Shown piece after piece: positions 11,906-37,482 of a DNA stretch of 64,000 bases (within the stretch, counting starts at the first letter, position 1; each line of letters starts with the position of its first letter). The DNA is from a virus. Made by a program: the position numbers and the translations under genes. The notes under the pieces are model-generated. The model made no database searches. It saw nothing but the letters and a program-made list of their open reading frames with translations, and had not been told where the DNA came from. The stretch lies in IMG/VR virus record IMGVR_UViG_3300005533_000226, positions 1-64,000 of that record; one strand, written 5' to 3'.

Positions 11906-12604
11906 TTATGCGTCTCCCGACATAACGATGCGATGCACTGAGACGACTTGTTCGCGGTCGAAAACGAATGGTCGCTCAGGGTTGAGCTGTTCAAGCCTCA
12001 GCTTCTTGTCATCCATCGAGACAAACCGCTTTACATACGCTGCCGGTGGCTCGCCATCGTCTCCGAGAATTTGAGCGATGACGTAATCTCCTTTGCGCAC
12101 TGGCAGGTGCGGGTTGATGAAGACTGTTTCGCCGGGCATGTAGCGCGGCGTCATGGAATCGCCGACTACATAGACCGCGTAAGCGTCAGGGACGCCCGTG
12201 AGAGACGGCGGCGCCAGCACGTCCGTCACCTTGTTTCCATTGAGAATGAACTGTCCATCTTTGCCCCCTACAGCGTGCCCGTAAACCGGGACTGTTGTGA
12301 ATTTGCCGACTGAACTGCCGATCTTAGCGTTGGCAATTTGTCGCAGGGGTGCGGCATCGGAGTCAAGCGATCCGCGCAGCTCCGATTCAGGAATGCTTAA
12401 AATCTCCGCGACTTGCGGTCGAATTTTTTCTGGCAACACCTTCGGAATTCCGCGCTTGATGAACTGCTGAATATAGGAATGACTTTGGCCGATTTTTTTC
12501 GACAAATCGGACCATGGGATTTTCAGCTCTGACGTTCGTTCTGCAACCAAATCGCGCACGCGCTGATCGCGCTCGTCGTCGATTTTTGTTGGCTTCTTGA
12601 TCAT
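11906..12604 (-). CDS. CI-like repressor, S24 (LexA-type) family
   Basis: A 232-residue repressor from the ATG at 12604 (AGGGAA upstream). Residues 10-70 form a HTH domain (WSDLSKKIGQSHSYIQQFI). The C-terminal domain is a self-cleaving S24 peptidase: catalytic Ser in GDSMTPRYMPGE and Lys in AAYVKRF. The usual Ala-Gly cleavage pair is not clear; the equivalent region is GHAVGGKDG. It probably keeps the prophage silent and is inactivated during the SOS response. It faces the operators at 12682-12734, from which it likely regulates itself. Confidence 0.9.
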   Translation of the reverse strand: MIKKPTKIDDERDQRVRDLVAERTSELKIPWSDLSKKIGQSHSYIQQFIKRGIPKVLPEKIRPQVAEILSIPESELRGSLDSDAAPLRQIANAKIGSSVGKFTTVPVYGHAVGGKDGQFILNGNKVTDVLAPPSLTGVPDAYAVYVVGDSMTPRYMPGETVFINPHLPVRKGDYVIAQILGDDGEPPAAYVKRFVSMDDKKLRLEQLNPERPFVFDREQVVSVHRIVMSGDA

Positions 12605-12681
12605 CTCTGTTCCCTGCTGAACCAACGGTTAATGGTTGTGCGGTTGTCCTTTTTACCCGCTTCGCCCGCCGCCTTCAACAA

Positions 12682-12806: not shown

Positions 12807-13148
12807 GTGCGGTTTTTCTCCTTAGCCTACACGGGCGAACAGCTCAGGGAAGCCAAACGGCTGATCCTCGACGGCGCCGGATTGATGCAGGTGGTGCGCG
12901 AAACGCAGCTACCTGAGAATTATGTGCGCGTCCTTTTGGGAATCGTTAGCTGCCCGGCCATCGCCCACACATTCGAGATTGCTTCCAAGTTTGACCGGCC
13001 GTTCGCGATGAATGGAACGGCGCGCGTTCTCAACGAAAACGATCACGTCGCATATCGGCGAGTGGTGGTGGACGATTTTGATGAGCCGCGCGTTTATTTC
13101 GTGACCGTGCCGCGCATTCGTTGCATCGAGGAAAGGGCGGCACAGTGA
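12807..13148 (+). CDS. first rightward early protein, possible Cro-position regulator
   Basis: A 113-residue protein with a helical N-terminal part (EAKRLILDGAGLMQVVRETQ, then ENYVRVLLG) that could be a HTH, followed by a beta-rich C-terminal half. It occupies the position of Cro, first gene rightward from the repressor, but has no recognisable Cro signature. The GTG start at 12807 is uncertain because no good ribosome-binding site is visible. Confidence 0.55.
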   Translation: MRFFSLAYTGEQLREAKRLILDGAGLMQVVRETQLPENYVRVLLGIVSCPAIAHTFEIASKFDRPFAMNGTARVLNENDHVAYRRVVVDDFDEPRVYFVTVPRIRCIEERAAQ

Positions 13149-13945
13149 GAGATTTCGAGCGCAAGGCTTGCGGCATTCGGTGGCCACAACACATCGCGGA
13201 TTTTTCCGCTGAGCGTTGGAGGGCCGGTGACAAGGCGCGGCAAATCATCGCGAAGCTAATTGAGATGCACGGCGATGATCCAGCTTGCGGAAATTTCGTC
13301 AAGTCGCTGAAGAAGGAATCGCTTGTCAGCAAGATGGCGCGCATGGGCGTCGAGACGCCGAATCTTTTTGGCAAGGCGTGGCCCGATGATGAATTCCAGT
13401 TTGTGAAGACATCATGGATGAACGGATTGTCGGCCGCCGTTATCGCGCAGCAGGTTTCGATGCGGTTAGACGAAAATCCTCATTGGCGAAAAGTCAGCCG
13501 CAATTCCGTCATTGGGAAAATGAGCCGCCACGGCATTGTCGCGCCCGGCGCGAAAGCCGTGACCAAGGACGGCCGGAAGGTTCTTCGCAAGGCTCGGCCG
13601 AAGGGAATGGCTGATCGGCCGCGCGCGCACCGGCCGCCAAGTCTGTCGATGGTGAAGCGCGCGGAGATGATAGCGAAGCCGCTTGGGCCGCTCGTATCGT
13701 TCGATGCGCTTACTCAGCATCAGTGCAGATATTCGTTCGGGCATCCGAATGAAGAAGGATTCGGTTTCTGCTGCGAGCCTGCTGAGGCGGGGTCGCCTTG
13801 GTGCAAGACGCACAAGGTTGTCTGCACGAGCGGATTCTATGGTCCGAAGACGGCAGAGGATCGGCGCGCACGCGCGGCCTGCGCGGCAAAGCCGCGTTTC
13901 AGTGCCCTGATGTATCGCGCGCTCGACGCGGGGCAGGTGCCATGA
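13145..13945 (+). CDS. GcrA-like transcriptional regulator
   Basis: A 266-residue protein. Residues about 85-140 match the GcrA N-terminal domain (WPDDEFQFVKTSWMNGLSAA, then SRNSVIGKMSRHGIV). The C-terminal part has the family's zinc-binding end (QCRYSFG, FCCEPAEAGSPWCKTH). GcrA acts with sigma70 at GANTC-methylated promoters in alphaproteobacteria. A phage copy could redirect host cell-cycle transcription or phage promoters. It is longer at the N-terminus than cellular GcrA. The GTG start at 13145 overlaps the previous stop (GTGA). A MT-A70 methyltransferase lies two genes downstream. Confidence 0.82.
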   Translation: MRDFERKACGIRWPQHIADFSAERWRAGDKARQIIAKLIEMHGDDPACGNFVKSLKKESLVSKMARMGVETPNLFGKAWPDDEFQFVKTSWMNGLSAAVIAQQVSMRLDENPHWRKVSRNSVIGKMSRHGIVAPGAKAVTKDGRKVLRKARPKGMADRPRAHRPPSLSMVKRAEMIAKPLGPLVSFDALTQHQCRYSFGHPNEEGFGFCCEPAEAGSPWCKTHKVVCTSGFYGPKTAEDRRARAACAAKPRFSALMYRALDAGQVP

Positions 13946-15845: not shown

Positions 15846-16909
15846 ACATCGACACCCCCGCGTGGAATCTGTGGAAGCAGAAGGCGCTCGCCGCCGACAT
15901 CCTGAACGCCGCGCGCGAACGCGGTGCGCAGCTCAAGCGCGCTGGCAGCGAATGGACCGGCCCGTGCCCGGCGTGCGGCGGCTCGGATCGCTTCTCGATC
16001 AACACGCGCAAGAAGGTTTTTAATTGTCGCGGTGCGAATGGCGGTGACGTGATCGCGATGGTTCAGCACATCGACGGCTGCACCTTTATGGAGGCGGTTG
16101 AGCGCCTTTCGGGTGAAGCACCGCCATCCGGTGAATCGAAGCCGCTGACGCCGGAAGAAAAAGAAAAGCAGGAACGGATTCGGCGCCGCATCGAGCGCAG
16201 GCGCTATCAAGAGCATCAACAGGATGAGCGCAAGGCGCAGGTGAGGGAGAGGGGCGCGCTTGAAATCCTCGCCGAGTCTTCGCCGCCAGCCGGTACGGCC
16301 GCAGAGACGTACCTGAAAAAGCGCGGTCTCGTGAATTTGCCGGATGAGTTGATCAACATGATCCGCTTTCATCCAATGGTCCGGTATGACCTTGATCACC
16401 GCAAGGCGTTCCCCGCGCTCGTGGCGCCGGTGCAGAACGTTGATGGCGAGACGGTTGCTGCGTGGCGCATTTATCTCACGGCAAGCGGGGCAAAGGCAGC
16501 GGTGAAGAAGCCGAAGCTTGGCATCGGACCCGCCGCCGGTGGTGCTGTTCGCTTCGGTGGCCTTGCTCCCAAGATTGGGATTGCTGAGGGAATCGAAACT
16601 GCGCTCGCCGTTTCTTGCATCAACGGTCATCGCTTCCCCGTGTGGGCTGCGCTTTCGACGGCTGGCATGACGCATATACGCTTGCCCATCGAGGTGCAGA
16701 GCGTCGTTATTTTTCCCGATGGCGATTTGCCTGCGAAGAAGAAAGACGGGGAGTGGGTGCCGACTGATTTTGGCCCCGGCCTCGTTGCCGCTCGCAATCT
16801 AAAGCAGCGCCTTCAAAGGATCGGCGTCGATTGCGCGATCAATGAGCCACCATTCGGTTCAGATTTTCTCGACGTGTGGAATGAGATTCAGAGCGCGGGT
16901 GTCGAATGA
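15842..16909 (+). CDS. DNA primase, zinc-finger and Toprim domains
   Basis: A 355-residue primase. The N-terminal zinc finger (CPACGGSDRF, then FNCRGANGGD) keeps three Cys, but the usual fourth ligand after CRG is absent. Residues about 245-340 form the Toprim catalytic domain with EGIETALA and IFPDGD. The middle part is a charged linker. It would make RNA primers for phage replication with the DnaB helicase, whose start overlaps its stop. Confidence 0.88.
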   Translation: MNIDTPAWNLWKQKALAADILNAARERGAQLKRAGSEWTGPCPACGGSDRFSINTRKKVFNCRGANGGDVIAMVQHIDGCTFMEAVERLSGEAPPSGESKPLTPEEKEKQERIRRRIERRRYQEHQQDERKAQVRERGALEILAESSPPAGTAAETYLKKRGLVNLPDELINMIRFHPMVRYDLDHRKAFPALVAPVQNVDGETVAAWRIYLTASGAKAAVKKPKLGIGPAAGGAVRFGGLAPKIGIAEGIETALAVSCINGHRFPVWAALSTAGMTHIRLPIEVQSVVIFPDGDLPAKKKDGEWVPTDFGPGLVAARNLKQRLQRIGVDCAINEPPFGSDFLDVWNEIQSAGVE

Positions 16910-18267
16910 AGAATCCGCGAGCTGAAAAGGCGCTTCTTGGTCTATTGATCAAGACGCCGGGAGAGATTGCGAAAGTGAACGCGATCCTTCAGCCACATCA
17001 TTTCGATGACAAGCTTCACGCTGAAATCTATTCGGCGATCAATGATCTTTGGGAGAAAAACGGCGCGGTGTCTCTGACGCTTCTGGCCTCACGTCTTCCT
17101 CTTGAAGACGAAGAAGGCGCCAGCGTTTCGACTTATCTGGCTGTTCTTTTCAAGAACGCGGAGGCCGGTGGATCGGTGACGGCGTTCGCCGATGAGATTC
17201 TTTCAGAGTGGACTCGCCGTCAGCTCGACGCCGTTGGCGATTGGGCGATCAAGGCGGCGGCCTCAGCGAAGATTTCCGCCGCTGATGCGCTCGCGCGCAT
17301 CGAGGAACGTGTGCGTGATATTGCGCGTGGCTCTGATGTGGTCCGCGAGAAGCCGATGAGCGACATCGCGGCTCGCGTTATTGAGCGTGCTGCCGATGCC
17401 TATAAGGTGGAAAGCCCGCCCGGCATTGAGACTGGCATCCCGGCGCTCGATGAGATTGTTGGCCGGATCATGCCCGGCGATCTTGTGTTCATTGGTGCCA
17501 GTCAGGGCGATAGCAAGACATCGTTGCTGACGCAGATTCTTGAACACAATGCGAAGCCTAAAAACGTTGATGGCGTCGAGAAGCCCGGCTTGCCGTGTCT
17601 GATGTTTCAGCAAGAGATGGGCGACGAAGATGTGGCCCGGCGGTTGTTTGCGGCTCGCACTCAGATTTCGGTTGCTAAGATTGAAGAAGGCGATTTCCAA
17701 CCGGCTGAGTTTGATCGCCTTTGCGCGGCACAGGATGAGTTGGCGAAGCTGAATCTTTCGATCATTGATCAGCCTCGTATGCGTGTTTCGCAAATTCGCT
17801 CGCGCGCGCTTTCGATGAAGCGTTCACGCGGGCTTGCCGTTGTCGGCATCGACCATCTGCGCCTGATCCAAGCCGATAGCCGGACATCGGATATTTTCGA
17901 GCGCATCGAATACGTGACCGGCTCTTTGAAATCTCTTGCCAAAGAACTGCACGCGCCCGTGATCGTGTTGGCGCAGCGCACGCGCTCATCTCAGGATCGC
18001 GATGATCCTGAGCCTCGTATTTCAGATTTATTCGGCGGCGGCTCGATTGAGCAAGATGCCGACATAGTGATTGGTCTTTGGCGCCGGGATATTTGGTTGC
18101 GCCAGCGTGAGCCGCACAGCGCCGCAAGTCGCGGTGAATGGGAGGTCGATCTTGCCAAGTGGCGCGACAAGGTTGGCGCTGTTTGCCTGAAGCGTCGGCG
18201 CGGCCCGGCTATGGGCAAGACTCGATTGAAATGGAATGGCGAGGCAACACGTTTCGAGGGAGAGTGA
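16906..18267 (+). CDS. replicative DNA helicase, DnaB family
   Basis: A 453-residue helicase with the N-terminal DnaB domain (residues 1-110) and the RecA-like motor: a Walker A region GASQGDSKTSLL, Walker B VVGIDHLRLI, then APVIVLAQ and QDADIVIGLWR. The Walker A has Ser where the usual Gly precedes Lys, a noted deviation. It unwinds DNA at the phage fork and is co-translated with the primase. Confidence 0.92.
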   Translation: MKNPRAEKALLGLLIKTPGEIAKVNAILQPHHFDDKLHAEIYSAINDLWEKNGAVSLTLLASRLPLEDEEGASVSTYLAVLFKNAEAGGSVTAFADEILSEWTRRQLDAVGDWAIKAAASAKISAADALARIEERVRDIARGSDVVREKPMSDIAARVIERAADAYKVESPPGIETGIPALDEIVGRIMPGDLVFIGASQGDSKTSLLTQILEHNAKPKNVDGVEKPGLPCLMFQQEMGDEDVARRLFAARTQISVAKIEEGDFQPAEFDRLCAAQDELAKLNLSIIDQPRMRVSQIRSRALSMKRSRGLAVVGIDHLRLIQADSRTSDIFERIEYVTGSLKSLAKELHAPVIVLAQRTRSSQDRDDPEPRISDLFGGGSIEQDADIVIGLWRRDIWLRQREPHSAASRGEWEVDLAKWRDKVGAVCLKRRRGPAMGKTRLKWNGEATRFEGE

Positions 18268-18269
18268 AC

Positions 18270-18965
18270 ATGGTGAAGCGGCTGAAGCTGAAGAAGGCGA
18301 AGGCGAAAAAGCGTTCCACTCATCCCCGCACGCAGGCTGAGATGACAGCCGCATATGACGCGCGGAAAAACCACGGCGCGATCACCGACAACACGCCGGT
18401 CGCTCCCATCGAAATCGTTGACCCGCACGGAACGAATCCGGGTGATAAGATTGTCACCTTCAGGTCGCTGCGTAGCGATCCGATTGCCTCGATCCACGCG
18501 CGCGGCAGCATCACCGACATCCAATACGATGCCGCGCGCCGGTATCAGCGGCTTTACGAGCTGACGCAGATTGGGATGGTGCAGGCGATTGACCCGGCGA
18601 AGCCAGCCGTCGATGGCGGCCGTTTTTCGGATGGCAATACGGACGCGCGGATGCGCGCCGCCGATACGCTCGCGGCTATCAACAAGGAGCTAGGATGGTC
18701 GGCGGCGTGGTTATTCGACATCCTCGTGGCGGAGATGACGCTGCGCGATGCGTGCGCCAAGCGCGGCATGTTCAGCAAGCAGGAACAGATAGGCGCCACG
18801 CTGATCCTTACCGAAGCCCTCAGCAGCGTTGCCGTCGAATTGGGGCTGATGACGGCGCCGGATGTGCCCGTTATCCCGCCGGACGCCAGTGAGAAGCCGC
18901 AGGCGCCTAAAACGCCCGCAAAACAGGTCGTTTCCGCCGAGCGGATGCACCCCTTTCACCCCTAA
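18270..18965 (+). CDS. conserved unknown protein, candidate late regulator
   Basis: A 231-residue protein. The first 20 residues are nearly all Lys/Arg. Residues 70-200 are helical (SITDIQYDAARRYQRLYELT, then ELGWSAAWLFDILVAEMTL), with an overall likeness to DUF6456-type proteins, which I hold only loosely. The C-terminus is Pro-rich. Its position is the striking point: it is last in the replication operon and directly upstream of a strong promoter followed by a terminator, exactly where lambdoid phages place antiterminator Q. That role is inference from context alone. Confidence 0.65.
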   Translation: MVKRLKLKKAKAKKRSTHPRTQAEMTAAYDARKNHGAITDNTPVAPIEIVDPHGTNPGDKIVTFRSLRSDPIASIHARGSITDIQYDAARRYQRLYELTQIGMVQAIDPAKPAVDGGRFSDGNTDARMRAADTLAAINKELGWSAAWLFDILVAEMTLRDACAKRGMFSKQEQIGATLILTEALSSVAVELGLMTAPDVPVIPPDASEKPQAPKTPAKQVVSAERMHPFHP

Positions 18966-18993
18966 TAGGGGGTCGGAAGAAAGGCACCCCCTA
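18966..18993. promoter_or_regulatory. inverted repeat upstream of the 19-kb promoter
   Basis: TAGGGGGT (18966-18973) and ACCCCCTA (18986-18993) form a perfect 8-bp inverted repeat starting at the stop codon of the upstream gene and ending 4 bases before the -35 box. It could terminate the replication operon or be a protein-binding site for the promoter. A related palindrome occurs at 26517-26528. Confidence 0.5.
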
Positions 18994-18997
18994 CCCC

Positions 18998-19026
18998 TTG
19001 ACGGCAGGTAACTTTGCATGTATAAA
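18998..19026 (+). promoter_or_regulatory. strong sigma70-type promoter
   Basis: The -35 TTGACG (18998-19003), exactly 17 bases, then -10 TATAAA (19021-19026). This is the best rightward promoter in the window. The expected start point is near 19033. An intrinsic terminator begins about 13 bases later. Confidence 0.8.
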
Positions 19027-19045
19027 TTGGGCTATGGCAGGAATT

Positions 19046-19073
19046 GCGCCCGGCACAGCGACCGGGCGCTTTT
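19046..19073 (+). terminator. promoter-proximal intrinsic terminator
   Basis: GCGCCCGG (19046-19053) pairs with CCGGGCGC (19062-19069) and TTTT follows (19070-19073). A transcript from the promoter above would be only about 40 bases. A 13-codon leaderless frame (ATG 19034 to TGA 19075) runs through the stem, so attenuation is an alternative to antitermination. Confidence 0.7.
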
Positions 19074-19172
19074 GATTCTGGGCACGCAGGCCCGGCGCGG
19101 CGTTCGCCAACTGCGCAAGGCGATACCGGCGACAGAATGCCGGGGCCGCAACAATTCTCGACAGGATCAGCA

Positions 19173-19415
19173 ATGAAATACGTTGGCGATAACGCGCCAG
19201 CGCCGTCACGATTGACGGTGCCGGTCTCGATTGATTTCGCCTGCGATTGCAAAAATCGCATCACCGCGAATTTCAAACTGCTTCCTGAAATGACGCTCCC
19301 CATGATCGTGAAATGCGGGATGTGTGATCGCCGTTATGAGCATTCGGTTGACGGCAAGACGATCAAACCGATGCCAAGCAACAGACTCATCGGAGTGCGT
19401 AAGAGGTCTTTCTGA
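19173..19415 (+). CDS. small zinc-ribbon-like protein
   Basis: An 80-residue protein with two Cys pairs (CDCKN and CGMCDR, 27 residues apart), likely a zinc ribbon. The start at 19173 is favoured by AGGATCAGCA upstream; the longer frame begins inside the terminator. It is the first gene after the promoter-terminator pair. Confidence 0.6.
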   Translation: MKYVGDNAPAPSRLTVPVSIDFACDCKNRITANFKLLPEMTLPMIVKCGMCDRRYEHSVDGKTIKPMPSNRLIGVRKRSF

Positions 19416-28391: not shown

Positions 28392-29273
28392 TTAGGCGGC
28401 CTCCTTTAGCTTGGCCATCTCATCGGCCAGCACCCAAAGGGCGCGGTTCAGCTTCACGTCACCGTCCACCGATTGAATCGGGCGGGTGTGACGATGAATG
28501 ATCCGGCCTTCTGAGTTGGCTTGCGAGTAGCCGATGCCACCACGCACAAGATTTTCTTGCACGCGGTTGAAAGTCCGCCACAGGTCATTGCCGGTGTCTT
28601 CCGGCCGCCGACCCGCGTTGAGCGCGGACGCCTTGATGGGGGAGTCGCCTTCAAAGCGGAGCTGAGCCGCCGCCGTAGCGAACGCCTGTTGCTCCGGGGC
28701 CGCCAGCATGAGCGTTTGGAAGCGCCCAACCTTCTCGGCCACATGGTCAACCTCATCAATGACGCGGTAAGCGCCGTCGATGACTTGACCTACCACGTCG
28801 CCCTTATGCGGCACGCGAACGTGCGCGTTCGGACGGCTGTGATCGGACACCACCATGCCGTTGAGGCAGATGAGACGAAACCAGCCCATGAACAGTTCAT
28901 AGGCTGACGTACCATCGTGCGAATTCAGCAGGCACACCTCAGGCACGCTATCGCCGACCGCGCGAGCGACAAGGCCGCTCTTGCGAAAGCGAATCATGTG
29001 CTTGGTAAAGCCGCGCTTCATTTCGTCTTTCGATCCGCCTTGCCGAACGGCAACCGGCTGAAAGCCTTCCTTCCGCAAGCCGTCGATCACGGCGCCGGTC
29101 GGCATGTAGGTGTAACGATCCGAACGGCTTTCGTGCTTCTCGATGGCGAACACCGAAGGGCACGCCTTGGCGATTTCCTCATTGCTGAGGCTCGCACCAT
29201 TGCGCGACATCAGTGACGCGCCACCACGGCCGAAGCGGTTGAAGCTACGGGTGGGGTCAAATTGAAGGTTCAT
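28392..29273 (-). CDS. DUF932 phage/plasmid-like protein
   Basis: A 293-residue protein recognised as the DUF932 (phage/plasmid-like TIGR03299) family: SVFAIEKHESRSDRYTYMPT, then DGLRKEGFQPV, MIRFRK and YELFMGWFRLICLNGMVV. The family is common on plasmids and phages but its function is not established. The ATG at 29273 follows the AAAGGAGACCA cassette; the upstream part of the frame overlaps the promoter. It is driven by the promoter at 29319-29348 and ended by a stem-loop. Confidence 0.8.
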   Translation of the reverse strand: MNLQFDPTRSFNRFGRGGASLMSRNGASLSNEEIAKACPSVFAIEKHESRSDRYTYMPTGAVIDGLRKEGFQPVAVRQGGSKDEMKRGFTKHMIRFRKSGLVARAVGDSVPEVCLLNSHDGTSAYELFMGWFRLICLNGMVVSDHSRPNAHVRVPHKGDVVGQVIDGAYRVIDEVDHVAEKVGRFQTLMLAAPEQQAFATAAAQLRFEGDSPIKASALNAGRRPEDTGNDLWRTFNRVQENLVRGGIGYSQANSEGRIIHRHTRPIQSVDGDVKLNRALWVLADEMAKLKEAA

Positions 29274-29318
29274 GCTTGGTCTCCTTTGTGTCCGGGCGTG
29301 ATTGCCCATGACCATTCC

Positions 29319-29348
29319 TTTATAGGGCATAATGCCCTAGGGCGTCAA
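29319..29348 (-). promoter_or_regulatory. regulated promoter of the DUF932 gene
   Basis: The -35 TTGACG (29348-29343), an 18-base spacer and -10 TATAAA (29324-29319). The spacer holds CCCTAGGGC followed by a GCCC arm, giving overlapping inverted repeats. The -35 and first nine spacer bases are identical to the promoter at 29855-29884, so a common regulator is likely. Confidence 0.75.
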
Positions 29349-31041: not shown

Positions 31042-31500
31042 ATGGGGCGCCCGCAATATGTGCCGACTGAAAAGGACAGAAGGCACGTCGAGCTAGAGCT
31101 GTCGCTTGGCGGCAAGGAAGCCGACATCTGCGCGATTCTCGAAATTGATGAGAAGACCTTTCGCAAGCATTTCGCCGCAGAGATTGCCGCAGGCGTCGAG
31201 GGCGCGAGTAGGCGCGTGGCGCACGCGCTTTACGAAAACGCGGTCGGGCGCCCGGCCGAATACAACGCCAAGGGCAAGCTGATCCGCGAGGAAATCAAGC
31301 CGCAGCTTGGTGCGCAAAAATACTGGCTGGCTTGCCGTGCCGGTTGGTACGAATACGCGCCGCCGAAGCTTCCGAATCCGAATAAGGCAGCGACGCCGCT
31401 TGGAAGGAAACAGCAGGCCACGGCCGATGCGATGACCGCAGCCAAGGGCACGAGCTGGGAAGATGTTCTAGGCAAGTCGCCCGCGCCGTCGCGTCAGTAA
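31042..31500 (+). CDS. terminase small subunit
   Basis: A 152-residue protein. Residues 10-50 hold a HTH (KEADICAILEIDEKTFRKHF), as in small terminase subunits that recognise the packaging site. The context, directly before the large subunit with no gap, settles the call. The purine-rich leader has no strong ribosome-binding site. Confidence 0.82.
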   Translation: MGRPQYVPTEKDRRHVELELSLGGKEADICAILEIDEKTFRKHFAAEIAAGVEGASRRVAHALYENAVGRPAEYNAKGKLIREEIKPQLGAQKYWLACRAGWYEYAPPKLPNPNKAATPLGRKQQATADAMTAAKGTSWEDVLGKSPAPSRQ

Positions 31501-33198
31501 ATGAAAAAGTGGAATTTTGCGTGCCCTGATTGGGAAGACCGCATTAGGGCGCGCGAATCATTACTGCCTGATTTGCCGCTTTACGATGAACAGGTGCGGA
31601 AGGCTCTTATTGTCTTCGGCAAGCTGCACATTCCCGATGTTGTCGGCACGCCATCGTTCGCGGATGTCGGCAAAGATTGGATTTACGATCCCGTTCGCGC
31701 GCTATTCGGTTCCCTCGACCCGGATACGATGATCAGGCATGTGCGCGAGATTTTCCAGCTCGTGCCGAAGAAGAATGCCAAGACCACGAATGGCGCCGCT
31801 ATTATGGTCACGGCGTTGGCGCTGAACATCCGGCCGCGCGCTGAATTCCTTTTGATCGGCCCGACGCAAACGGTTTCCGACCGCGCTTTTGAGCAAGCGG
31901 TTGGCATGATTCAGAATGACCCTGAAGGGTATCTGCAAAAGCGGATGCATATTCAGGATCACCGCAAGCGCATCATCGACCGTATGAACGGCGCGATGCT
32001 GTCGGTGAAAACATTCGACACCAAGATTGTCACCGGCGCCAAGCCTGCTGGCGTTCTCATTGATGAGCTGCACGAAATTTCGTCGATGGCTGACGCCGAC
32101 CGCGTAATTGGACAGCTACGCGGTGGCATTATCTCGCAGAGCGAAGGCTTTCTTATTTTCATCACTACGCAATCCGAACGGCCGCCCGCTGGCGTGTTCA
32201 GGATCGAGTTGAGTAAGGCGCGCGCAATCCGCGACGGTCGGATTGAGGGCGCGATGCTCCCGCTGCTTTATGAATTCCCGGCGGATATGATCAAGTCCGG
32301 CGAATGGGAAAATCCGAAGAACTGGCCGATGGTGACGCCGAATCTTGGATGCGGTCTCACCATCGAGCGCCTTGTTGAAGATGCCCGCGATGCCAAGTTT
32401 GCTGGCGAACAGGAATACCGCCGCTGGGCATCACAGCATTTGAATATCGAGATTGGTCTTGCGCTCGCAGATGATCGTTGGCCCGGCGCCGATTTTTGGG
32501 AGGCGATGGGCGACACCAAGCTGACGCTTGAACAGATTATCTCGCGCTCGGATGTCGGCGTTTTTGGAATTGACGGCGGCGGCCTCGACGATCTTTTGGG
32601 CCTCGCATTCATTGGCCGTGATCGCGAAACCCGCGAATGGCTTCATTGGTCGCACACATGGGCGCATCAGTCCGTGTTTGAGCGCCGCAAGGAAATCGCA
32701 GCGCGCCTGTTGGATTTTCAACAGGATGGCGAATTGACCGTGGTGAAAGAGCTGGGCAGCGACGTTCGGCAGATTGCTGAGATTGTCGCGTGGATCGACT
32801 CGCTTGGAATCCTGCCTGAGAAAAATGCCATCGGCGTTGACCCGGTTGGCATCGGGCAAATCGTCGATGAAATCGCGGCGATGGGATTGGACACCACGCG
32901 CATCGTTGGCGTCCCGCAAGGATGGAAGCTGAACGGCGCTATCAAGGCGCTTGAGCGCAAGCTGGCCGAACGCACGTTCACCCACGCCGGGCAGGCGCTT
33001 ATGGCTTGGTGCGTTGGCAACGCCAAGGCTGAGCCGCGCGGTAATGCAATCAGCATAACGAAGCAGGCGGCCGGTAAGGCGAAAATCGACACGCTGATGG
33101 CGACCTTCAATGCGGCATCGTTGATGAGTTTGAATCCAGAAGCGATGGGCGCCCTCAAGTCTCCTTATGAGAATGAGGGCTTTTCCATCAAAAAGTGA
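31501..33198 (+). CDS. terL: terminase large subunit
   Basis: A 565-residue packaging motor and nuclease of the HK97-type Terminase_1 family. The ATPase has a deviant Walker A (VPKKNAKTT) and a Walker B GVLIDELHEIS. ITTQSERPP follows as the coupling motif. The nuclease half has GIDGGGLDDLLGLAFIGRD and GVDPVGIGQIVDEI. It cuts concatemers and drives DNA into the prohead. It starts immediately after the small-subunit stop. Confidence 0.93.
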   Translation: MKKWNFACPDWEDRIRARESLLPDLPLYDEQVRKALIVFGKLHIPDVVGTPSFADVGKDWIYDPVRALFGSLDPDTMIRHVREIFQLVPKKNAKTTNGAAIMVTALALNIRPRAEFLLIGPTQTVSDRAFEQAVGMIQNDPEGYLQKRMHIQDHRKRIIDRMNGAMLSVKTFDTKIVTGAKPAGVLIDELHEISSMADADRVIGQLRGGIISQSEGFLIFITTQSERPPAGVFRIELSKARAIRDGRIEGAMLPLLYEFPADMIKSGEWENPKNWPMVTPNLGCGLTIERLVEDARDAKFAGEQEYRRWASQHLNIEIGLALADDRWPGADFWEAMGDTKLTLEQIISRSDVGVFGIDGGGLDDLLGLAFIGRDRETREWLHWSHTWAHQSVFERRKEIAARLLDFQQDGELTVVKELGSDVRQIAEIVAWIDSLGILPEKNAIGVDPVGIGQIVDEIAAMGLDTTRIVGVPQGWKLNGAIKALERKLAERTFTHAGQALMAWCVGNAKAEPRGNAISITKQAAGKAKIDTLMATFNAASLMSLNPEAMGALKSPYENEGFSIKK

Positions 33199-36760: not shown

Positions 36761-36780
36761 TCCACACCACCAAAATAGGG

Positions 36781-36806
36781 ACGGCGGGCTTCGGCCCGCC
36801 GTTTTT
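36781..36806 (+). terminator. intrinsic terminator after the capsid gene
   Basis: ACGGCGGGC (36781-36789), a TTCG tetraloop, GCCCGCCGT (36794-36802), then TTTTT. Confidence 0.85.
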
Positions 36807-37444: not shown

Positions 37445-37482
37445 GCGACGGCCCCGGCCTTCGTGGCCGGGGTCGCTTTTTT
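37445..37482 (+). terminator. strong intrinsic terminator
   Basis: A stem of 12-15 bp, GCGACGGCCCCGGCC (37445) against GGCCGGGGTCGC (37465), followed by TTTTTT. It divides the head genes from the connector genes. Confidence 0.85.

Follow-up and report, generated by a model that had tools for sequence, protein, structure and literature searches.

A GafZ-like regulator gene and a candidate late-gene switch in a temperate alphaproteobacterial phage

The locus described here raises the question of how a phage could use a near-consensus promoter that runs almost at once into an intrinsic terminator, and whether the product of the gene directly upstream decides the fate of the transcript. An initial annotation had compared this arrangement with that of antiterminator Q, promoter pR', and terminator tR' in lambdoid phages. 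In this phage and in many relatives among alphaproteobacterial phages, a regulator gene distantly related to that of GafZ, the proven anti-terminator of gene transfer agents (GTAs), is followed immediately by a promoter whose transcript meets a terminator about 13 bases on. This looks like an on-switch for late genes that has the design of the phage lambda switch and employs a protein of another family. No phage GafZ-like late switch was found in the literature that we searched, from which subscription papers were mostly absent. GafZ was first found in GTAs, and relatives of it that are probable late regulators of ordinary phages suggest an origin for the GTA switch. The comparison also points to a likely function for PHROG 21451 and the DUF6456 phage proteins, until now without an assigned one, and alphaproteobacterial phages thereby gain a testable mechanism of late control.

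Setting of the candidate switch in the phage genome

The window, meaning the whole stretch of 64,000 nucleotides that was analyzed, covers nearly all of a 64,840-base IMG/VR virus record. Judged by its genes, it belongs to a temperate tailed phage of alphaproteobacteria. The early genes encode, in this order, a GcrA-like regulator, an MT-A70 methylase, a RuvC-like resolvase, a primase, and DnaB, after which comes the gene at 18270; small genes, among them MazG-like and HNH ones, fill 19-28 kb, and the terminase is succeeded by portal, major head protein, tail genes, and endolysin. The genes needed for orientation are these:

11906-12625, minus strand: S24-type repressor
13121-13945: GcrA-like regulator
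16906-18267, plus strand: DnaB-like replicative helicase of the early region, directly upstream of the 18270 gene
18270-18965, plus strand: gafZ-like (DUF6456-related) regulator gene encoding P0001 (231 amino acids, PHROG 21451), the candidate anti-terminator; its stop codon TAA is 18963-18965
19173-19415, plus strand: first gene 3' of the candidate switch (80 amino acids, no family)
28392-29330, minus strand: DUF932 gene, which interrupts the plus strand block before the terminase
31042-31500, plus strand: terminase small subunit, at which the packaging and structural genes start
31501-33198, plus strand: terminase large subunit

Reading the sequence between the regulator gene and its downstream neighbor directly, we found the inverted repeat, the TTGACG-17-TATAAA promoter, and the intrinsic terminator, which the transcript reaches after about 13 bases, just where the initial annotation had placed them:

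18966-18973 and 18986-18993, in the gap that separates the stop codon from the -35: two perfectly inverted 8-bp arms, TAGGGGGT-N12-ACCCCCTA
18998-19026, plus strand: pR'-like promoter with -35 TTGACG (18998-19003), 17-nt spacer (19004-19020), and -10 TATAAA (19021-19026)
19033-19034, plus strand: predicted transcription start, placed 7-8 nt after the -10
19034-19075, plus strand: leaderless frame of 13 codons, MAGIAPGTATGRF, spanning the terminator (ATG at 19034, stop at 19073-19075), not conserved
19039-19046, plus strand: AGGAATTG, a weakly supported element at the same offset from the -35 as AAGAATTG/AAGATTTG in many relatives
19046-19073, plus strand: tR'-like intrinsic terminator starting at about +13, with a stem at 19046-19069 (8 G-C pairs) and the T-run TTTT at 19070-19073

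The promoter matches the sigma70 consensus at 10/12 positions and is the best on the plus strand of the window, where only five sites reach 9/12; a default promoter scan had missed it solely because it required T at the last position of the -10. The transcript through the terminator folds at -19.2 kcal/mol (z -2.1). On both strands of the 64 kb, this is the sole sigma70-like promoter (at least 9/12) with a terminator no more than 45 nt past its predicted start. The repeat at 18966-18993 folds as RNA no more strongly than shuffled sequences do (z -0.42) and, having no T-run, is not a terminator. The window and two related loci (L036 and L043) have inverted repeats of the form GGGGGT...ACCCCC, with differing spacing, beside the -35 or on both sides of it, possibly as a site for another regulator.

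A phage protein family homologous to DUF6456 and GafZ

The initial annotation had assigned the 18270 gene to no confident family. This holds for P0001 compared with Pfam, where it has no match, but the protein matches phrog_21451 (E 1.7e-11), the profile of PHROG 21451 (function unknown), and its family is homologous to DUF6456/GafZ. Single-protein scans of viral and genome collections with P0001 returned no relatives. It took an alignment of P0001 with one Bradyrhizobium prophage protein (32% identity) to open the family, and profile searches gathered 24 and then 79 viral loci plus five loci in Bradyrhizobium genomes and a Pseudochrobactrum plasmid prophage. An HMM built from 49 relatives without P0001 matches P0001 at E 3.8e-44 and nothing else among the 546 frames of the window.

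In the loci examined, the family gene is the last early gene and packaging genes come after it, in the relatives with genes of the packaging region about 1 kb away. It is preceded in relatives by DUF1376-like and GapR-like (DUF2312) proteins and often by DnaA-domain or GcrA proteins: a protein cluster whose representative carries Bac_DnaA_C lies no more than 3 kb upstream in about 32 relatives, and GcrA-like proteins lie upstream in about 11 as well as in the window. These DnaA-domain helix-turn-helix proteins, GafY-like in this domain, are encoded a few genes upstream (e.g., L050:530-1396 and L026:6809-7261). Among the early open reading frames of the window that were tested, no GafY-like protein was found, with the GcrA-like protein in its place.

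The homology to DUF6456, a family that the initial annotation had proposed for comparison, was borne out at the level of the family. Pfam DUF6456 is matched by 35/52 members (best 1.5e-7), phage-type members exceed its cut-off in a whole-genome search, and hhalign relates the phage family profile over 142 columns to a chromosomal GafZ/DUF6456 profile of 27 GafZ-type proteins from 27 genomes, with 97% probability and E 1.8e-10. P0001 by itself is too diverged to reach the threshold of the DUF6456 or GafZ HMM (E 0.89), so that its membership in the DUF6456/GafZ superfamily is a family-level homology established through its own relatives. Much weaker is the similarity to the KorA/TrfB repressors of plasmid genes (PF16509), which is confined to the helix-turn-helix part and seen in 7/52 members. 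The remark in the initial annotation that the regulator is not recognizably a Q protein fits the whole family, given that none of the 52 members matched the Pfam Q families (lambda, 21, and 82) at E 0.1. One DUF6456 protein, gp38 of RDJL Phi 1 (GafZ HMM 9.6e-8), was considered as a further late-switch example and set aside, since its gene is a neighbor of ctrA and does not occupy the position of a late switch.

The relationship is informative due to what has been established for GafZ of Caulobacter crescentus, an experimentally supported GTA anti-terminator that needs, and binds, an element located in the GTA promoter between the -35 and -10, spreads across the gene cluster together with RNA polymerase and Nus factors, and permits terminator readthrough (PMC11150451). 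The authors of that work noticed no resemblance of GafZ to known anti-terminators (PMC11150451).

In the AlphaFold2 models of P0001 (pLDDT 79.5) and of a family member from locus L005 (79.4), the C-terminal part is helical and predicted with confidence, and the most conserved motif, AIDPxKEAVDGG, falls in a loop of low confidence. Compared with the PDB by Foldseek, the L005 model ranks Q of phage 21 (6p1c) first of 350,542 chains with probability 0.89, TM 0.39/0.45, and sigma factors among the next matches; phage 21 Q is also the most probable match of P0001. The E values of these resemblances (0.27 and 0.8 for L005; 1.7 and 3.1 for P0001) are not significant. Searching viral models, we obtained fold matches to a DUF6456 phage protein (E 2e-5) and to a 172-amino-acid protein of Rhodobacter phage RcRhea (3.9e-5). 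The only RcRhea gene of this length is gp44 (L240:34728-35300), which lies just after primases and has a TTGACT a few bases past its stop codon. No terminator is evident behind gp44 and its sequence has no match to the HMMs; as a fold-level relative in a phage whose host is a laboratory organism, it would make a good experimental model.

Promoter, spacer element, and terminator in relatives

In the relatives, the -35 and -10 enclose a spacer with GCAAATCA; another hexamer resembling the -10 follows at a distance of 9 bp, and a terminator comes last. Of the 79 loci, 40 contain the motif GCAAATCA close to the gene's 3' end. In control regions, located upstream or further downstream, no 8-mer was shared by over 16 loci. 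The motif is placed in the spacer between -35 and -10: TTGACtggtccaGCAAATCAcc(-10). The loci that seeded the PWM for this spacer element also served to score it, and the controls were scanned with this PWM too. The promoter is close to the gene, with a -35 that overlaps the stop codon in ten loci and is no more than 60 nt from it in 38/57.

A promoter followed 40-85 nt on by a hairpin with T-run was found 3' of the gene in 25/78 loci, as compared with 2/281 control stretches of the same contigs (p 2e-16, an optimistic value because the criteria, which accepted TTG[AC]C and hairpin loops of at most 19 nt, were set after the relatives' hairpins had been seen) and with 1/390 shuffles. These locus counts are not fully independent since some relatives are close kin. 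A stricter first version with full sigma70 criteria gave 3/78 versus 1/281 (p 0.03) and was too strict to be useful, and a count based on folding gave 28/46 distinct promoters versus 32/272 control stretches. About 40% of the relatives' promoters, after de-duplication, have no clear terminator within 110 nt. The hairpin mostly starts 46-58 nt from the -35, compared with 48 nt in the window, which puts the relatives' terminator 12-22 nt into the transcript; its sequence varies and its position is kept.

The -10-like hexamer stands exactly 9 bp past the -10 in the relatives (z 5.4; A2 and T6 both present in half of the promoters). Q promoters carry a sigma-dependent pause element of -10-like sequence in the initially transcribed region (PMC6606751, PMC9371919), and by analogy this is a plausible place for such an element here. 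The three cis parts of Q control thus recur next to an unrelated protein family. An inverted copy of GCAAATCA, TGATTTGC, is present in the initially transcribed region of the promoters of L060, L063, L064, L025, L058, and L106 as well as in loci without a spacer copy (L029, L032, and L106), and in L006 (2240-2540) a tRNA-like gene apparently lies, by eye, between late promoter and terminator.

The window agrees with its relatives in -35, -10, 17-nt spacing, and hairpin distance. Its promoter ranks 4 or 28 of 127,902 positions with PWMs of the relatives' promoters, driven by the -35 and -10, and the initially transcribed columns at AGGAATTG place it in the top 2.1% of positions. GCAAATCA is absent from the spacer of the window, whose spacer columns taken alone rank 47,253 of 127,902 and lend no support, and the hexamer at +9 past the -10, GGCTAT, is a poor match. 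The simplest reading would be that the diverged P0001 uses a diverged spacer element. A similarity search with the intergenic DNA and an exact search for the window promoter returned no relatives. For finding the binding code, many natural promoter variants are available.

The comparison with known systems brings out both the kinship and the differences. Like GafZ, the relatives of P0001 are associated with an element between -35 and -10, but theirs is GCAAATCA as opposed to the palindrome GCGCCCG-CTGGCGC of the GafZ system. The phage -35 is of consensus type, in contrast to the degenerate -35 of the GafZ system that needs GafY and IHF, GafY being the partner of GafZ with a DnaA-like helix-turn-helix. 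The terminator sits 12-22 nt into the phage transcript and behind the first gene in the GafZ system, and P0001, unlike GafZ, is encoded by a phage gene adjoining its promoter. Phages 21, 82, and lambda share with the present locus the order of regulator gene, promoter, and terminator, and with its relatives the element between -35 and -10 and a -10-like hexamer in the initially transcribed region (PMC6606751). The P0001 family differs from Q as a sequence family of its own, with no detectable relation to Pfam Q and with the -10-like element 9 bp past the -10. A precedent for Q-like anti-termination by a protein without sequence relation to Q is AlpA of Pseudomonas aeruginosa, which likewise has a spacer element and an intrinsic terminator downstream (PMC9371919), but controls host lysis genes and, by its description, belongs to a different protein family.

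The DNA element is not exclusive to the P0001 family. A reverse search with the motif yielded 71 viral contigs, of which some carry the gene beside the motif; the majority are from a second phage group, which has 1-4 copies of TTGACACGTCGGGCAAATCACC...CATCGCAAGAATTG and an adjacent GC hairpin and T-run. These modules are oriented like the late genes and stand before DUF5309-type capsid, portal, and terminase genes (L124, L142, L175, L166, L114, L118, and L128 and, in reverse-complement coordinates, L234 at 17844, L235 at 8011, L236 at 6865, and L237 at 11274). No P0001 homolog was detected on the contigs of this group, which are fragmentary or incomplete, and either its regulator is unlinked or diverged or GCAAATCA is also read by something else. 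The promoter core TTGACNCGTCGGGCAAATCA occurs in 2-18 copies per Bradyrhizobium genome (L192-L200; G001-G003), partly as dispersed repeats that end in AATATTCCGAAATC and lack a terminator and partly with terminators in phage-like regions.

Mechanism, rival explanations, and reach

We propose, at a probability of roughly 0.7, that the 18270 product, as a phage protein of the DUF6456/GafZ superfamily, acts in the manner of Q and brings about processive anti-termination. Transcription would start near 19033 and, without P0001, stop at the terminator about 40 nt later (near 19073), leaving a tiny RNA. Expression at the replication stage would supply P0001, whose sigma-region-4-like helix-turn-helix would bind the element between -35 and -10. 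The protein would then load onto RNA polymerase paused close to the start site, a pause for which the -10-like hexamer 9 bp past the -10 is probably responsible in most relatives, and travel with the enzyme through 19046-19073 and the later terminators into the downstream genes. The model builds on a gene family homologous to GafZ, the order of promoter, element, and terminator, a position before the terminase, and in-line terminators; from these, we infer DNA binding by P0001, pausing, loading, and readthrough.

The initial annotation had called the link between gene and promoter positional. This understates the case, since the homology to GafZ and the conservation of a promoter-terminator module behind the gene also support it. 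The likeness to Q/pR'/tR' has accordingly become more specific through a GafZ-homologous family and a module kept in tens of relatives, but in the window itself it lacks GCAAATCA in the spacer and has a poor +9 hexamer. As far as sequence can tell, the candidate switch works like Q without belonging to a known Q family.

The homology could be read differently, with P0001 as a transcription activator that recruits RNA polymerase at -35/-10 and a hairpin that only trims basal transcription. GafA of Rhodobacter capsulatus, a partial homolog with a DUF6456-type domain in its C-terminal part, is described as a recruiter of RNA polymerase through omega (PMC9638019), and this domain binds around the -10/-35/TSS of the target promoter (PMC9638019; PMC11150451); moreover, some relatives have a poor -35 or -10 hexamer (L027, L028, and L049). 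GafA differs, however, in being fused to a DnaA-like DNA-binding part, and GafZ, which was shown to anti-terminate, is the nearer homolog. In addition, the near-consensus promoter of the window (10/12) should need no activator, and the conserved terminator so early in the transcript would block a promoter that is merely activated. We therefore regard an activator as improbable.

The module might instead have nothing to do with the upstream gene and make a short regulatory RNA, for which a predicted product of about 40 nt with a stable hairpin would be suitable, all the more as short modules occur elsewhere as multi-copy elements. Yet no Rfam family matches anywhere in the window, the place of the hairpin and not its sequence is kept in relatives, and the module is tied to the P0001 gene family when compared with other places in the same contigs, which makes this explanation quite improbable. 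The initial annotation had also offered attenuation, with translation of the leaderless 13-codon frame controlling the terminator. The frame is present and overlaps the stem, but a comparable one is found there in 0/56 relatives' promoters (the few ATG or GTG codons at that place open frames of other lengths), and the adjoining gene is a regulator with an anti-terminator relative, so that we give attenuation hardly any credence.

Anti-termination by P0001 would have work to do in the late region. The initial annotation had counted at least eight further terminators; nine intergenic hairpins with T-rich tails were found on the plus strand:

27887, 28358, 29874, 35351, 36777, 37449, 51293, 56671, and 63544, plus strand: intergenic hairpins with T-rich tails
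36777-36806, plus strand: in-line terminator between the major head protein gene and the next gene
37449-37475, plus strand: in-line terminator between head-tail genes

Those at 36777, 37449, 51293, and 56671 lie among head and tail genes, and no sigma70-like plus strand promoter of at least 9/12 is present from 23,440 to 63,223. Both observations fit antitermination into the late genes, as would be the case if P0001 controlled a head-tail gene cluster with in-line terminators as GafZ does. Against full control of the late region counts the position of the terminase 12 kb downstream of the candidate switch and past the minus-strand DUF932 gene. The switch could thus be real and serve only the small genes at 19-28 kb, with head-tail genes under other control, which is compatible with an anti-terminator mechanism and differs in reach. 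This gap with its opposite-strand gene, set beside the distance of about 1 kb in relatives, speaks for such a shorter range, but the missing plus strand promoters and the in-line terminators of the head-tail region speak against it, and we hold it to be rather unlikely.

On a broader scale, and tentatively, phage DUF6456 proteins may form a further class of Q-type anti-terminators that was the source of GafZ and GafA and has a sigma-region-4-like fold in common with phage 21 Q. The repeated modules before capsid, portal, and terminase genes in one Bradyrhizobium-type phage group would then amount to a multi-promoter anti-termination regulon.

As a separate observation, the top minus-strand match of the window to the PWM of the relatives' promoters (TTGACG-18-TATAAA, 29348-29319) lies at the start of the DUF932 gene and contains the palindrome-like CCCTAGGGCATTATGCCC.
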